Positions 54,300 to 63,323 of a stretch of DNA of 64,000 nucleotides are shown piece after piece. A model generated the notes under the pieces. The model was not told the DNA's origin and made no database searches. It worked only from the letters and a program-made list of their open reading frames with translations. How positions within the stretch are numbered: position 1 is the first letter of the stretch; every line of letters begins with the position of its first letter. This DNA is from Candidatus Mycoplasma haematominutum 'Birmingham 1' (GTDB lineage Bacteria > Bacillota_I > Bacilli_A > Mycoplasmatales > Mycoplasmoidaceae), in contig NC_021007.1 in NCBI RefSeq assembly GCF_000319365.1, positions 62,001 through 126,000 of the forward strand, given 5' to 3'. The translations under genes were made by a program, and so were the position numbers.

Positions 54300-54325
54300 G
54301 GGGGGGGAGCCCCCCCCTTTTTTTT
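54300..54325 (+). terminator. Rho-independent terminator of infC
   Basis: G8, AG, C8 then a run of T. The T-run overlaps the TAA stop of the converging minus-strand gene. Confidence 0.85.
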
Positions 54326-55574
54326 ATCTGTTTTTAGTTATTTCTATTGTCTTCTTATTTTGTGAGTTCTGATTCGAGCTCTGGTCAGAATCAGAACTCA
54401 CTTGTTGCTGGCTCTTGTCATAGTATCTGGGGGTTAAGAGGTCAAGTGAGGAATAAAGAAATTGGTTATCTAGGAGCAATTTCTTTATTCAAGCTTGATT
54501 CTCTGTGTTCGAAGATTGATCACTTACTTGAAATTGCAGGTAGTATTTGCGTTTAAAAACATTTTTTTTGGGTGTACCGATATTCATAGCACTTCCGTCC
54601 GAAGAAGATGGATCATCTTGTGCTTTGTCGTCTTCTGTTACGGGATCTTGAGCATGCACTACTGTTAAGTCAGACGCAGCAAACAGCGAGGGGTTTGCGT
54701 CGAAGAATGAGCGGGGGAAGAAAATAGAGCTTCCCAGAGGGGCTGATCGCTTGAAGCGTTCAAGCGCCAGCCAGTTATTCTCTGGAAGCTGACTCCCTCT
54801 AAAGCTTGTCAGACTAGAGGTAGATTTTGGTCAACAGTAGTAATCAGCGATGTTTGGGCATTTGGTTAGATTGTCTTCAGAAACCAGCTTATTGCAGTTG
54901 GCTTCTTGAATTGTCTTTTTCAAGTAGCAGTCATCTAGCAGACCTTCCGAGATACCTTTTTCTGGGGTCGCTAAGAAAGCTTTATTAAGGTTTGATCGTA
55001 ATTCACCGCCCTCCCGTATAAACGCACCGTAATTACACTCGCTAAAGTTGCCTTGTCCAGTAGTGAAAAGTTTGATTAAATCTCCTCGATTCCCCTTCCA
55101 ATCCCCCTTTCCATCTGAATCCCCCTTTTCGAGGTATTGGTCCAAATCATATGGTTTATAAGTTATCTCCTGAGTACATTTGGGATCTTTTTTGAATACA
55201 AAAACTAACGGATCTTGGGCAAAATACACCTGACGATATCCCCCCTCCTTAGTTTCAGTAATCTCACTTTCTAGGCTATAGGGATTAGTATTCTCACTTT
55301 TTCGCTCGTCAATAGACGCGAGTATAAAGTCTATCGACTTAGAGGAATAAGATTCTTTCCCCATAGAAGAACCTAGGGGAAGTATATTGACTTCTAGAGT
55401 TTGTCCAGAAGCTTTTAACACCTGACTCATAACCCTAATAGGATCGTACATTGAAGCACTTCCCTCTAGGGTAATTGTTTTTATTCCACTATCTCCTGTT
55501 GATACAGAGGGAACTATTATTCCCTGTGAACCTCCTAGGCTAAGTAACAGTTTAGTGGCCTGAACTTTATTCAT
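54324..55574 (-). CDS. PstS-like extracytoplasmic binding protein with long C-terminal tail
   Basis: 416 residues, ATG 55574. TLEGSASMYDPIRVMSQVL, ILPLGSSMGKESYSSKSIDFIL and the strand DPLVFVFKKD follow the layout of phosphate-binding PstS (ligand loops with GS and GSSxG). A family lipobox Cys is not evident at the N-terminus. After YYCW near 248 a further ~170 residues extend the protein, ending Ser/Gln/Asn-rich (QQQVSSDSDQSSNQ). No pst permease is nearby. Phosphate as ligand is inference. Confidence 0.5.
54362..54401. repeat. Perfect 14-bp inverted repeat inside the tail of the PstS-like gene
   Basis: GTGAGTTCTGATTC, 12-base loop, GAATCAGAACTCAC with no mismatch. It lies in the repetitive Ser/Asp/Gln/Asn-coding end (QVSSDSDQSSNQNS). 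Confidence 0.75.
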
Positions 55575-56526: not shown

Positions 56527-57204
56527 CTATTTAGTGATAGAAGTTCCTGTTATCTTTACTCATCAGTTATTGGCCATTGTATTGGCTCCTCCAAATTTAT
56601 TTATTGAGTGGTTTTCTGTCCTTCAATTTTTACCTATACCGTCATATCACTTAATTTTCGTACCAACTTCCTTAATTAATGTAGCTTCTCACTCCTTCCC
56701 AGAAGTACTGTAACGATCTACTTTTAATCTGTATTTAGCATCACCTCTCTCGAAGCTTAGGAAGCCACAATATGCATCTTGACCTCCTATAGCTTTACAG
56801 TCTTTTCACTCTTGGGAGACTAATCTCAATGTTCCTGTATTTTGTTCTTTTTCTCAGATGGCTTTAAATTCTTCCTTTCAGTTTAAGCCTCTTTCCTTTC
56901 GTTGCACTTCACTTTGTTTTTCAATATAAGCACGATTTATTTCAGCCCATACTTCTTCAAGATTTGCATTATTTTTTTCCCCAGTTTCTGAATTTCGCTG
57001 GGAAATTTCATCACTGAACTCCATAGTAATCTGTTGAGGAGTATGCTTTTCACTATACAATTCTGAAAGCTCTCTAGTTTCTCCATCTTTTTCCTGAGTA
57101 TCAGTTGAGTTAAAATAGATCGCAGTCGGCGCACCGATTAGACATGAAGTGCCTGTTGCACAGGCCAGTGCCAATTGAGGTCTTGTCATGGGAATAAGTG
57201 CCAT
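56527..57204 (-). CDS. Family 4 secreted paralogue outside the main array
   Basis: 225 residues, ATG 57204. Signal ALACATGTSCLIGAPTAIYF. Core WKDCKAIGGQDAYCGFLSF, KYRLKVDRYSTSGKEW and ANTMANNWWVKITGTS. Relative to the gene at 37917 the GGQDAYCG core is identical. It follows the ABC operon and the next family 4 gene at a 14-base gap. Function unknown. Confidence 0.63.
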
Positions 57205-57218
57205 ATTCTTAGGCTACC

Positions 57219-57920
57219 TTAAATTTCTATTGAGACTCCCGTTAATGTACTTCACCAGTTATTAGCACTTTGAGCACTTCCCTGAAAGTTATCTATATTA
57301 GTAGCCCTGGAATTATCTCATTTATTGGAAGTTTTAGAATACCACTGAATATTACTTCCATTCTTTGTTACTAATGTCACAGCTCACTTCTTTCCACCGC
57401 CTCCCTTTCCATATCTGTCAAACTTTAACCTATACTCCTCTCCTCCAATTTTTAACTTAAGATAACCACAATAGTCTGTTTTTCCTCCAGAAATAGAGGC
57501 GCAATCCTTATATTCTTGCGCTTCAATTCTTCACTCACTATTAGAGACACTTTTACCTAGTAATATATTTTGTAATTCAGTTTTTCAGGAAAGTATATTC
57601 TCTGAAGCTTCTTTATTTTCGGTTTGTTTTTTCAGATATTCCCCAGTTATTTTGGTTCACAACTCACTAAATTTTGACTCCCTTTCCTGATTTTGAACAT
57701 TATCAGTTTCATTAGAGTTTTGAGATATATTTTCGGGGCCAATTGTTAATTTGTCTTCAATTTCTGAACTAACTTGGGTTAGCTCCCCTACATCTGCCTG
57801 AGTTGCTGAGGCAGTTTCTTCACTAGAGCCAGTGTAGTGAAGAAAAACAGGAGTACCTATTGCACAACTTCCTCCAGCAGTTAAGGATAAACATAATTTC
57901 GATCTAGAGCTGAAGCCCAT
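57219..57920 (-). CDS. Family 4 secreted paralogue outside the main array
   Basis: 233 residues, ATG 57920. Signal LCLSLTAGGSCAIGTPVFLHY. Core YKDCASISGGKTDYCGYLKL, EYRLKFDRYGKGGGKKW, then NIDNFQGSAQSANNWW. Most like the gene at 38680. It lies 27 bases after the last ABC gene and could be read with the importer operon. Function unknown. Confidence 0.63.
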
Positions 57921-57947: not shown

Positions 57948-59210
57948 TTAAATAGCCTTTAATTCGTCATTCTTAAGGTTTTCCAATTTTATATGCTTGA
58001 CTAAATATCCTGAATCAATAATTATTAATTCATCAATATACTGTTTTACCTCACTTATGTCGTGATGAATCATAATAATAGACGCACCGTAATTCTGTTG
58101 TAATTCTTTCAGATATTCTAGTACTAGTATCTTGCTTTTTATATCTAAAAAATTGAGAGGCTCATCCAATACTATGATCTTCGCTCCCTGAATAATAGCC
58201 CTAGCAATAATAGTTTTTTGCTTATTTCCCCCTGAAAGAGAGTAGAGAGACTTGTGAGCTTCTTTTTCTAAATTAAGTCCCTTTAATACCTTTAGCACTT
58301 TTTGCTTTTTTTCTGCTTCACTTATCTTTTTAGAGAGCATTCCTTCCTGCGGATAAAAACCTATGGCTATGAAATCAAGTATTGAGATATCGTGATAGAT
58401 AATCGAGTGCTGTGGTATGTATGAAATATTTTGCGCAAATGATTTAATGGAGAGCTCCTTAAGTTCCTTTCCTGCTCAGAGCACTTGACCTTCATAGTTA
58501 GAGAGCAGGTGAACTATTATTTTTGCGATAGTACTCTTTCCAGAACCATTTTTACCAACTATTGCAATAAATTTATTTGATGCAAGACTCAAATTGATGT
58601 TTTTTATTAACTGAATATCTTTTTCTGCCTGCAGATAATCTTTTCAGACGTTAGAAAATCTCTCTAATTTAGAGATATAATTGTGAAGCCTTTTTAGCCT
58701 TAGCGGTGCTCTAGAGTATTTAAAAGACAGATTTGACAGTACTAGTAATTTATTTTTGACTAGCTTAGTATCTGGAAACGCTCCCTTCAGGTAGGGTGCT
58801 CTAGAGCAATTTAGTACTCTCTCCTCTGAAGCTTGCTCACCTCAAGAATAGACCTGAAAGAAAGATAGGGGATATCTCATGAGTACAGCACCGAAAGGGC
58901 TAAATATACCTTCTACTGAGAATCAGAATTTAAACCAACTATCTACATTAGTTCAGGAAGAATAAATTTTCAGTATTAGTCCTGCTTTAATGATTCAGTG
59001 CAGAAAAAGACAGATTAGAGAGAAAATAGATAATCCTCTCATAAAGGGAAGAGATTGAAAGCGAAAAGAGTCTATATATAGAAAAAAAGCAGAGAGTAGG
59101 GCTCAAACTAGTGCAGCTAAGTGATTGATTGAACTTCATCTTAGCGCAGTCTTAAGAGGTATTTTTAGGTATCACCTCTTTAATAGAAAGTATGCTAACC
59201 CCCTAATAAT
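57948..59210 (-). CDS. ABC transporter ATP-binding protein fused to N-terminal membrane segments
   Basis: 420 residues. Two hydrophobic segments (HLAALVWALLSAFFLYI ~27-44; GLSIFSLICLFLHWIIKAGL ~54-73) precede the nucleotide-binding domain: IVGKNGSGKST (Walker A ~221), LSGGNKQK (signature ~327), KIIVLDEPLNFLD (Walker B ~342) and IHHD (switch His). The start appears to be ATT 59210, overlapping the stop of the upstream gene by 8 bases; no ATG, GTG or TTG precedes the first helix. FecE-type ATPases normally lack membrane helices. Confidence 0.75.
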
Positions 59211-60699
59211 TTAGAGAAGTATTCCAGAGAAGAGAGTTTCACTTCTCTCTAGGAAGAGTTAAGTCGTAAAGTTCATTTAAGAGTGAGGGAGTTAATAATT
59301 TATCTTTTTTACCTATCTGATGTATTCTACCTCCCTTCATAGCTATTACCTGAGTTGCCAACTTATTGACTTCTGCAAAATTATGTAGATTAGCAATTAT
59401 TGTTTTACCTTGAGAATGTAATTTTCTAAAGAAATTCACTAAGAAAGCCCTATTTGCAGTATCTAAAAACGTGGTTGGTTCGTCTAACAGAATGAGTTCA
59501 GCATCCTTGACTAAAATACTGGCCAGTATTACCTTTTGTCGTTGGCCTCCAGAGAGGTCTCCTATTTTAGCTCACCTTAGGTGCTGAAGCTGACAATTTT
59601 GAATAGCCTTTAGCACTCTTAAGTGATCTACTGGAGTAGCCCTTTGAGTTCTAGCGAGTGTAATAAATCTAGAGCTAAGTAAAAAATCATACACTGGAGT
59701 ATCTGGAGGAATTGTAAGCTCTTGGGGAATATAAGCTACTCTAGCTCAGAAGTTTCTATTCTTAATAGAATTAAGCGATCTAGAGTTCAAAAGAATTTCT
59801 CCCTTACTAGGAGTTAATAATTTTGCAAGCTGCTTTAGAAGTGTAGTCTTGCCCGCACCGTTAGCTCCTATGATTGCATAAAATTCAGCTTTCTGCAGTT
59901 TTAGATTTATATCTTTAAGTATTTCCGAATTTTCCAATGAGTAGCTTAGGTTAGAGAGGCAAAGGAGATCGGGATCCTTAGAGCATAGGGGAGCTAATTT
60001 GGGAAGTTCCCTATATTGTGCAAATTGTGATAGCTTTCTCCGGTATTTAAGCATTCATCCAGGCAGTTGAGTTAAAAGATGGTAGATAAGTCACTTTAAC
60101 TTTTCTTTTTTTTCTAGATTATTGAAGTTAGAACAAAAGTACAACGCTGAAGCGGAAAGAGCAACTGCACAAAGTATACAGACAGTAAGTGTAAATACAG
60201 ACAGCTCAACTCAGTGATTGAGGCTTAAAAATTTAGCTTTAAAGTCTGGGAAAAGGGTATTTATGTTAGAAGTAGAATTATTGTTTTGTTGTGTATTCTC
60301 AGTTGTATCCTTTTTTTCTTCTAATACTGCGATTAGATGAGTTCAACTGAGATCTTTTAAAAAAGAGTTAACTAATTGTTGCAATTTCTGGGGATAGAGT
60401 TCTGCACTACTTGAGAAATTTCCCGCACTAGCTACCTGAGTGGGCTGAGGAGTTGAGTCTATATCTAGTTGATTTACTAATTTTGTGAGATAAGAGAAGC
60501 TACCTGAGTTAAGCATTAAATATCAGGCACTGTGAGAGGGTATGCTCTGAGTGTTTTTACTAGAAGTATTAGAGGTTAGAAAAGAAGCTGCAGAGAGGGA
60601 TTGATATTTAGTTTCTAGTTGATTATTTACCAGGGAAGTGGCGATTCCACTTAACACAGAGAGAGAGGAAAATGTAGATAGCACTAGGGATTTAAACAA
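59203..60699 (-). CDS. ABC ATPase fused to two membrane segments and an outer domain
   Basis: 498 residues from TTG 60699, 2 bases after the permease stop. N-terminal helix (SLVLSTFSSLSVLSGIATSL, ~4-24), a ~135-residue polar stretch rich in Ser/Gln/Asn, a second helix (LSVFTLTVCILCAVALSASA ~166-186), then the ATPase: IIGANGAGKTT (~284), LSGGQRQKV, ILLDEPTTFLD and ANLHN. The stretch between helices would be outside the cell and could replace a separate binding protein. That role is inference. Confidence 0.75.
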
Positions 60700-60701
60700 C
60701 T

Positions 60702-61724
60702 TTATCTACTGTGTTTAATTACCAAAAATAGAAAAATAGGTGTAATAATTGCTGTAGAAAGAATTCCTATAGGGATATTTTGATCTAAATTTATAGAGAT
60801 GAAAGTTGCTAGCACCACCAGGAGAGCTCCACATATGAAGCTAACTATTACATTAGATGAAGCTTTATTTCCAAAGATAAATCTCGCAAGATGTGGAGCA
60901 ATTATTCCCAAAAGAGAGATAGTACCGACTAGTGCACTTTCTAGTCCCGCTAGTATAGAGATAAGTCCAAATAGTAGTTTTTTTAACCCCACAACATTTA
61001 TTCCCTGAGAAGCTGCATAGTCATTTCCAATCTCTAGCAGCTCTAATTCTCTCCTATAGAGTCAAACTACTCCAGAGACTATAGCGATTAGTACAAAAGA
61101 GAGAATAGTTGAAATTCTCCACTCGGGAAAGAGGGAAGTTACTCCAAGATTAGGTAATTTACCATAACTGTATGCTGAGATCTCTGCTGAGAGCTGAGTA
61201 GAGTTATTCTTATCTGATTTATTGGAGAATTGGAGAATTGCAATACTAATAGCTTCACAAAAGAATTGGAAGGATATTCCAGATATCACAAAAGATTGAG
61301 CACTTTTACGTTTTGAAGAAAGTCTGTATACTATAGCAGTGCCGATGATAGAAGATGCTAGGGAGATAATGGGGAGAAGCACCTTTAGTTGAGGGAGAGA
61401 AGTTTTTTCTCCATCAAAATGGAAGTAGATAAATAGGCTGATTGCAATAATATTTAGAGAGCCGATCCCCAGTAGAGAGATGTCAGCTAGGGGATTTTTG
61501 GTTAACTTTTGGAGGAGCAGTCCCGCAACACCTAGCGCCCCTCCACTGAATACTGCTAGAAAATATTGTCAGAGTCTTGGATTGATCGCTTGATAGGAAA
61601 AGTCGTACTGACCATTTAGGGAGAACAACATAAAGAAGGTGGCAGAACAACTTAATATTCCCAGAGATATTCATTTAGTCGGTGCGGACTGGTAGCTTAA
61701 CTGGAGGGCATTAACCTTATTCAA
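60702..61724 (-). CDS. FecCD-family permease (iron/siderophore/cobalamin type)
   Basis: 340 residues from TTG 61724, full family length, about ten helices. FSGGALGVAGLLLQKLTKNPLAD (the GAxLavsGxxxQxxxxNPLAD motif) is split here as FSGGALGVAGLLLQ and KNPLADISLLG. RRELELLEIGNDYAASQGIN is the cytoplasmic coupling loop, followed by TISLLGIIAPHLAR. Five bases follow the stop of the paralogous permease; the two probably form a heterodimer. Confidence 0.88.
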
Positions 61725-61729
61725 AAGGC

Positions 61730-62845
61730 TTACTCCCTAGTCAAGAGAAAGAGAGAAGCTGCGCCTAGCGCAAGTATTAAGTTAGAGGTAGAGATTTCCG
61801 GTACGTAACTATTTACTGTAATTGCAATCATTAAAAGCAGAGCTGAAATTAGAGAAGAAGAGGGAATAATAGCTTCATATTTTCGAGTTTTTAGAATCCT
61901 TCGCGCTAAGTGAGTACTTATTAAACCTACAAATGAGATATTTCCCACTAGGTTAATAGTTAAGGTGTTACAACATAAAATAGTGGAGTAGCCTAGAAAT
62001 TGCAACATTCTAATATTTACTCCCAGAGAGTGTGCTTGATCAAAACCTAGTTCAGCTAAATTAAGACTCTTAGCTAGACATCTAGTAAACAAAAAAAGAA
62101 GCACTGTGATAGGCATTGCATATTGCAGTAATTGAAATTGAGAGGGAAATAATTCAAATATATTTTCAGCCCCTCCAAGTGCCAGCGCAAAAGAGGTATT
62201 AACTGAGGTAACACTATAGGCTTTTACAAGATGAGTAGCTGTTCTGAAAAAGATATTGAGTACAAGTCCGAAGAGAATAATGAGTGTGCAGATATTTTTT
62301 CTCTCTCAGGAAACATTGCTGTTGAATATAAAAAGGATAAGCATAAATACAAGGAAAGCACAAAAAAAAGCCATCAGGAAATGCGCAAAATAAAAATTTC
62401 CTATTTCAGCACCCAAAAACACTTTTAATAGCATTAGTCCAAAGGCAGCACCATCAATCATTCCTAGTGTAGAGCAATCAGCTAATGGGTTTTGAAGTAG
62501 TGACTGAGAGATATTTCCAGAGATAGCAAGTAAAACCGCTGCAAGTATAGAGGCAATAGAAATTCATACTATCTTCTGATAAGGTTCATAATTTGGACTT
62601 TCACTGCCTGAATTTTGAGTTGGTCTAGACCCAAAGAGAGGGCCTAAGAATTCCTCCAGCTCCCACTTGGGGAGCTGTCTAAGGAGATTAACTACAAGTA
62701 ATAGGAGAGTAAGACCAAATAGGGAAAATAGTATTAATCTTTTTCTAGTAAGTAGTTGTAAAAATAGGGAAGAAGGTCTCGAATTTTCCCTTGCCTCATA
62801 TAAGGGTATAGGGGGATTGCAAGCAAGTGCACAGCTACTAGACAT
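61730..62845 (-). CDS. FecCD-family permease, second paralogue
   Basis: 371 residues, ATG 62845, overlapping the stop of the flavin reductase gene by 8 bases. A ~50-residue N-terminal extension precedes the first helix (FSLFGLTLLLLVVNLL). Hallmarks: SGNISQSLLQNPLADCSTLG, LNLAELGFDQAHSLGVN and NISFVGLISTHLARR. Together with 60702-61724 it builds the channel of a metal-chelate importer. Many TGA Trp. Confidence 0.87.
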
Positions 62846-63323
62846 ATACTCGTAATTTTTCTACTAGTTTTTGCATAGAGCTTTCTTTAGTAGTATTTAC
62901 AAACTTTATCTCTTCTGCTCCCAAAGAATTAAAGGTATTTACACAAACTTGTTCAAATTCTCTAGTACCTATTTCAGTGGAACTCACTCCAATAAGTATT
63001 ACCCTTTTAGCATAGAATATGTTTCTAGAGCTAAGACTACATCAATCTAGTACATTTTTAAAAAACGCTGAAAAATTGTAGTTATATTGCGGGAATACAA
63101 AAATTAAATTATGATGGGTTTTAATTTTTTCTACCAAAAAAGAAATTGAAGCAGGAAGTTCTTTTTCTGCAATTACCTCATTACTCAATATCGGAATTAT
63201 TTCAGTGGGATTAAAGTAGAGCGCTCAAATCGAGAGCTCTCTTGAAAGGCCTTCTGTTAATTCCTTGCTTTTAGACTGTTTACTATTGCTACCACATATG
63301 ATTATTGTGTCGCGCTTATTCAA
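62838..63323 (-). CDS. NAD(P)H-dependent FMN reductase-like flavodoxin-fold protein
   Basis: 161 residues from TTG 63323. ICGSNSKQSKSKEL is the phosphate loop of flavodoxin-like reductases, and FPQYNYNFSAFFKNVLDWC matches the PxYN...LKNxxDW signature. Such enzymes reduce FMN or quinones; beside FecCD permeases a ferric-reductase role, releasing iron from a chelate, is plausible but inferred. It sits directly after the HAD gene stop and overlaps the permease start. Confidence 0.72.

Follow-up and report, generated by a model that had tools for sequence, protein, structure and literature searches.

The window analysed here, a stretch of 64,000 nucleotides spanning positions 62001-126000 of the 513,880-bp contig of 'Ca. 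Mycoplasma haemominutum' Birmingham 1, carries genes that probably encode a type II importer of the FhuBC/HmuUV/BtuCD kind, served by a binding protein in trans and driven by two non-identical ATPases that are tethered to the membrane. Two different FecCD permeases would form its channel and two different FecE-like ATPases would drive transport; the cargo would be caught by a large separate binding protein from another locus and passed to the permeases. In each ATPase, an N-terminal two-helix module would tie the chain to the membrane, and that of ATPase A would expose about 144 residues outside; the most probable role of these modules is to keep the two unlike ATPases paired and seated on the permeases, with docking of the binding protein as a possible further role. 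We infer from the genes that the parts assemble as one complex, that this complex works as an importer, and that its substrate is an iron-siderophore or heme-like compound.

Hemoplasmas are unculturable, and their uptake of nutrients from blood is hardly understood. With the genes described here they gain a complete candidate importer, whose putative capture protein had not been connected with it in the open-access genome papers. The published annotation of the system is ferrichrome (PMC3146833), and the M. suis genome paper lists a cobalamin ABC transporter (PMC3091866), which is probably the same system; beyond such annotation names, these hemoplasma genome papers are silent on any uptake of iron or heme through the system, as they are on the ATPase fusion and the binding protein.

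The module and the binding protein were searched for in 320 genomes. These include ten hemoplasmas (G000-G006, G010, G019 and G028), seven of the suis group and three of the haemofelis group, among them M. suis Illinois (G001), M. ovis Michigan (G003), 'Ca. M. haemolamae' (G004), M. parvum (G006), M. haemofelis (G010), M. haemocanis (G019) and G005, which we take to be M. wenyonii. The genome G007 (1.22 Mb) comes from a different genus of the same family and represents a sister species to the hemoplasmas; it probably belongs to the M. fastidiosum cluster, the nearest kin of the hemoplasmas (PMC11895434).

Gene content of the importer locus

As shown in Table 1, the genes lie on the minus strand in the order gmk, HAD phosphatase, FMN reductase, permease A, permease B, ATPase A and ATPase B; the complete ORF of the HAD phosphatase is L003:7326-8213, and gmk and a divergent ileS lie further upstream. 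An earlier note on this DNA had described two FecCD permeases followed by two ATPases with N-terminal membrane helices, and the Pfam matches together with the hydrophobic helices confirm this order. Both permeases are FecCD-family proteins of a type II importer, with FhuB (5e-23), HmuU (3e-18) and BtuC (5e-12) as PDB matches of permease B, and each hemoplasma genome contains one FecCD pair only. Both window ATPases possess the Walker A, Q-loop, LSGG, Walker B and His-loop motifs of the FecE/BtuD type; their best NCBIfam model is FecE, with a score under the equivalog cut-off. The single soluble ATPase acting as a homodimer, which is usual for such importers, though not strictly defining, is replaced here by two paralogous ATPases with membrane modules. 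The proposal of a rearranged iron or heme uptake system holds in that this is the only FecCD-type importer of the genome and is rearranged, with tethered ATPases and a loop predicted to lie outside; iron or heme is its putative substrate.

Table 1. Features of the importer locus (coordinates in the window)
Feature	Position	Strand	Basis
ATPase B, corrected, ~419 aa, inferred ATT start 59207 or 59210	57948-59210	minus	PF00005, E 3e-32
ATPase A, 498 aa, TTG start	59203-60699	minus	PF00005, E 5e-31
ATPase A outer loop, residues 24-167	60199-60630	minus	predicted topology
FecCD permease B, 340 aa	60702-61724	minus	PF01032, E 4.5e-52
FecCD permease A, 371 aa	61730-62845	minus	PF01032, E 2.2e-36
NADPH-dependent FMN reductase family protein, 161 aa	62838-63323	minus	PF03358, E 7.6e-19
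Cof-type HAD phosphatase, 295 aa, runs past window end	63325-64000	minus	PF08282, E 2e-22

The ATPase at the end of the operon is longer than it first appeared. The 364-aa ORF at 57948-59042 is the portion of ATPase B after its first ATG, and the frame remains open upstream to the ATT codons at 59207 and 59210, which overlap the stop of the 498-aa gene; the additional 55-56 or so residues align with sequence from M. parvum, M. suis and M. haemolamae (E 2e-12 to 4e-9), and this extension gives ATPase B, too, two N-terminal helices. In haemominutum, suis, parvum and haemolamae, the open frame between the ATPases is without ATG, GTG or TTG, and its translation in these four matches the ATG- or TTG-started N-terminus of other species; an upstream alternative start near the junction is ATG in wenyonii and G002 and TTG in ovis. 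The A/B junction reads TATTAA or TATTAG in seven of seven species, so that an ATT in the reading frame of ATPase B shares letters with the stop codon of ATPase A. A start of ATPase B at ATT is probable, and its translation would proceed by termination-reinitiation. The 364-residue protein had been rightly seen as helix-bearing, but its ORF was 5'-truncated; taken as a whole, the earlier note was right on gene content, had this ATPase too short, and is supported only in part in its interpretation.

In the window, ATPase B retains intact Walker A (GKNGSGKST), LSGGN, IVLDEP and HHD motifs. In the haemofelis group (L031:10287-11690, L032:10192-11595 and L033:9449-10855), the Walker A of ATPase B reads GCNGSSKTT, with the last glycine of the motif lost, and that of ATPase A is intact; asymmetric ATP sites are possible in this group. 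Close to the A-loop, ATPase B (window 58600-58720; L031-L034) has some 35-60 extra residues inserted between strands 1 and 2 of its ATPase domain; in G007 and the haemofelis group, ATPase A has this insertion as well.

Meanwhile, the flavodoxin-fold reductase that had been noticed overlapping the first permease is confirmed as a PF03358 member (68.2 bits against a curated cut-off of 24); the overlap with permease A has the same length, 8 bp, in each of the seven suis-group genomes. Its PDB matches are of the chromate reductase/YieF type, and every hemoplasma has one such gene. In the suis group, gmk-HAD-FMN reductase precedes the transporter, and in G007 HAD-FMN reductase does so; in the haemofelis group, gmk-HAD-FMN reductase stands without the transporter and is followed by a purine-nucleoside phosphorylase-like gene, the transporter being located elsewhere. 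Because of this separate block, the link of the reductase to the importer is weak, and the gene neighbourhood is mild evidence at best for reductive iron release.

Several other genes lie near these loci. At 56527-57920 of the window, two adjacent proteins of 225 and 233 aa, each with an N-terminal helix and with similar C-terminal parts, are probably members of hemoplasma surface paralogue families. A 416-aa protein at 54324-55574 of the window resembles a phosphate-binding protein by eye, and in M. suis the protein encoded immediately after the importer (L025:10171-11367) shows a weak PBP_like_2 match (E 0.0011).

The membrane modules of the ATPases

ATPase A has helices at residues 5-23 and 168-186 with a loop of 144 residues between them, followed at about 187-225 by a strongly basic stretch and a marginally hydrophobic PGW segment, and then by the FecE-like ATPase domain (residues 245-498). 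In the suis group, helix 2 is flanked by 0-2 Lys/Arg just before and 3-7 just after, so the loop is predicted to lie outside and the ATPase domain inside. An outside loop of about 135 residues had been claimed for this protein; its location is supported by these charge flanks, and its length becomes 144 residues. The main uncertainty in the topology is the PGW segment, since a third crossing would invert it but would put the basic stretch outside. In ATPase B, the outer loop of G007 has about 80 residues and that of the haemofelis group about 40, whereas the suis group has a short one. An ABC half-transporter or exporter, with a six-helix transmembrane domain fused to the ATPase, does not describe these chains: the ABC_membrane domain was not found in the ATPases, which have two clear helices and one marginal segment.

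The module of ATPase A is present in 11 of the 320 genomes (seven of the suis group, three of the haemofelis group, and G007). The remaining genomes of the set contain no module at a convincing E-value, and no convincing standalone module was found outside ATPases in the 320 genomes. Orthologues of ATPase A with the same module in G002-G006 share 44-45% identity. The dN/dS of the loop is 0.11 for haemofelis/haemocanis and 0.23-0.27 for ovis against G002 and against wenyonii, and it reaches 0.65 for parvum/suis, in an alignment with many gaps; the ATPase domain gives 0.05 in the haemofelis/haemocanis pair, and all these values are rough because dS is near saturation except in that pair. The module is under purifying selection and hence real.

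When the 498-aa protein was modelled with ATPase B as its sole relative, the predicted structure was poor (mean pLDDT 44), and a similarity scan of genome contigs returned only one unrelated Bacillus ABC protein. Pfam and PDB searches with the loop and module found no relative, homology between the N-terminal modules of ATPases A and B is unsupported (hhalign probability 0.2%), and a 309-aa Ureaplasma-type protein adjoining a permease was rejected as a relative of the module on comparison. It is conceivable that the modules sense or regulate, for instance through trans-inhibition or activity control, and do not anchor or dock anything; two-helix modules with outer loops can signal, and the two loops differ strongly between clades. 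Such a role is nevertheless improbable, as no sensory family was matched in the module searches.

A candidate binding protein and the loss of lipoprotein processing

The cargo of the importer is probably bound by a secreted protein of 672 aa, which is encoded on the minus strand at C1:489302-491320, far from the window and unlinked to the importer. It was found with a profile built from three Ureaplasma-type secreted proteins of 650-720 aa, which matches a single locus in G007 and per suis-group genome (split into pieces in M. suis) and two to three loci in the haemofelis group; an earlier profile specific to the lineage (A6) had returned nothing in the suis group. With all members aligned, the profile identifies 14 of the 320 genomes at E < 1e-90, exactly those with this permease clade, a co-occurrence count that is inflated by shared ancestry. 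Among six Ureaplasma-type genomes, three hold both the binding protein and the permease clade, and neither is seen in the remaining three; G310, which belongs to the latter, is incomplete and is not represented in the permease tree. Against FecCD-linked binding proteins, one of which is a Peripla_BP_2 member (E 1e-10), the family aligns at an hhalign probability of 94% (E 1.3e-7), the 178 aligned columns being confined to its C-terminal part; its sole PDB profile match, weak by itself but pointing the same way, is the iron(III)-compound binding protein 3tef (E 0.067), and the family has no match in Pfam. HHPxxE, GWWW and Arg-Asp are invariant in the family. The link between candidate and importer rests on distant homology, co-occurrence and the linkage in Ureaplasma types, the hemoplasma genes being unlinked. 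The claim that there is no separate binding protein is accordingly true of the window and its upstream neighbourhood (HAD, gmk, ileS), but genome-wide the candidate speaks against it.

The candidate also bears on the proposal of a capture domain within the ATPase chain, in which the outer loop of ATPase A would stand in for a binding protein. That loop is predicted outside and conserved in hemoplasmas, the operon is without a binding protein, and a Peripla_BP_2 search matched nothing in 59 relatives. However, this search is insensitive, since in the same genomes it also missed FecCD loci where mycoplasma lipoproteins adjoin the permeases; such an absence says little, and we dropped it as support for an importer free of a binding protein. 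The loop itself consists of Ser, Thr, Asn and Gln to 43% and has only about 83-93 residues in the haemofelis group; the suis-group alignment shows invariant Phe, Trp, Ser, Gly, Gln, Tyr and Lys but not a single invariant His, Cys or Met, and the loop resembles none of the binding proteins with which it was compared. As a separate candidate tracks the permease clade, a capture loop is unlikely, and the preferred reading places capture in the separate protein.

It has been reported that M. suis lacks Lgt and Lsp (PMC3091866). This absence extends to both hemoplasma groups: none of the ten hemoplasma genomes contains Lgt (PF01790) or Lsp, the signal peptidase II (PF01252), which is why no lipoprotein is visible, and both enzymes are present in six relatives including G007. 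The pattern reads as a loss of lipoprotein processing at the base of the hemoplasmas. The binding protein bears a lipobox in G007 and, by pattern, in two of four Ureaplasma-type proteins, and the signal of a third, L064, ends in AFAC; among the hemoplasma copies examined, only that of M. wenyonii has a lipobox-like sequence (LTAC). No type I signal peptidase was found in 16 genomes, so the N-terminal segment of the binding protein may remain as an anchor.

These observations raise the possibility, which we hold tentatively, that the outer loops are a dock keeping the binding protein at the importer, useful after the lipid anchor was lost. The lack of both enzymes in ten of ten hemoplasmas, the missing lipobox and the conserved aromatic and Ser-Gly positions of the loop are consistent with it. 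Yet G007 has the module and retains Lgt, Lsp and the lipobox, the loop evolves fast, and an uncleaved N-terminal segment could equally anchor the binding protein. The stronger version, in which ATPase chains span the membrane and their outer loops retain an anchor-free binding protein at the cell surface through the motor subunits, is doubtful; docking of the binding protein by the loops, if real, would amount to a novel wiring for an ABC importer. Since G007 combines the module with Lgt, Lsp and a lipobox, the module is older than the loss of lipoprotein processing and is not tied to the loss of a lipoprotein binding protein. This timing, with the second ATPase and the modules shared with G007, favours a basic structural role, that is, the holding and pairing of the ATPases. 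The architecture of membrane-tethered non-identical ATPases is clade-specific, and it stands beside a group-wide loss of lipoprotein processing.

In M. suis Illinois, the genes for ATPase A (L025:7329-8917) and the binding protein (L099:4982-7182) are interrupted; its ATPase A loop includes a long serine run, and the N-terminal part and the ATPase domain lie in different frames. This split resembles a frame break within A-rich sequence and was not accepted as an unfused ancestral state. Given the interruptions, some strains may do without the system, and together with the altered Walker A of ATPase B in the haemofelis group they could suggest a decaying relic with the modules as remnants. We consider decay very improbable, because the frames are open in all ten other genomes, the permeases and ATPases are under purifying selection, the catalytic motifs of the suis group are intact, and the M. 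suis breaks could be sequencing errors or strain-specific.

Comparison with known systems

In GlnPQ, OpuA and PotCD-type fusions, the binding domain is fused to the permease. The present system likewise joins importer subunits in one chain, but the fusion partner is the ATPase and no binding domain is recognised in the fusion. CbiN of CbiMNQO has two helices and an outer loop; ECF importers and CbiMNQO are alike in using two non-identical ATPases, and their small two-helix component offers a functional analogy. Unlike these, the present system has FecCD permeases and not EcfT/CbiQ, its helices are fused to the ATPases, and a binding-protein candidate exists, so that an ECF importer made of EcfT and an S component with no binding protein does not describe it.

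The type II importers FecBCDE, FhuBCD, HmuTUV and BtuCDF are closer. They share with it the FecCD permeases (FhuB, HmuU and BtuC being the best PDB matches), the FecE-like ATPase domains and a separate extracytoplasmic binding-protein candidate of a distantly related type. The differences are that two different ATPases occur here and not one, both with two-helix modules, that the putative binding protein is very large, with about 610-690 aa, and is encoded elsewhere in the genome, and that hemoplasmas are without the lipoprotein enzymes. At most of the other mycoplasma FecCD loci examined, a lipoprotein or secreted protein adjoins the permeases, and the ATPases, where present, have a normal start, with Walker A at residue 34-69 and in one case at 93. 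In the permease tree, hemoplasmas and G007 group with one of several Ureaplasma-type systems. This sister system (G016, G025 and G311) has a homologous secreted protein of 650-720 aa; it differs in its single soluble ATPase of normal length (Walker A at 53-69), in its lipoprotein signals, and in a binding-protein gene that adjoins the ATPase gene and the gene for permease B.
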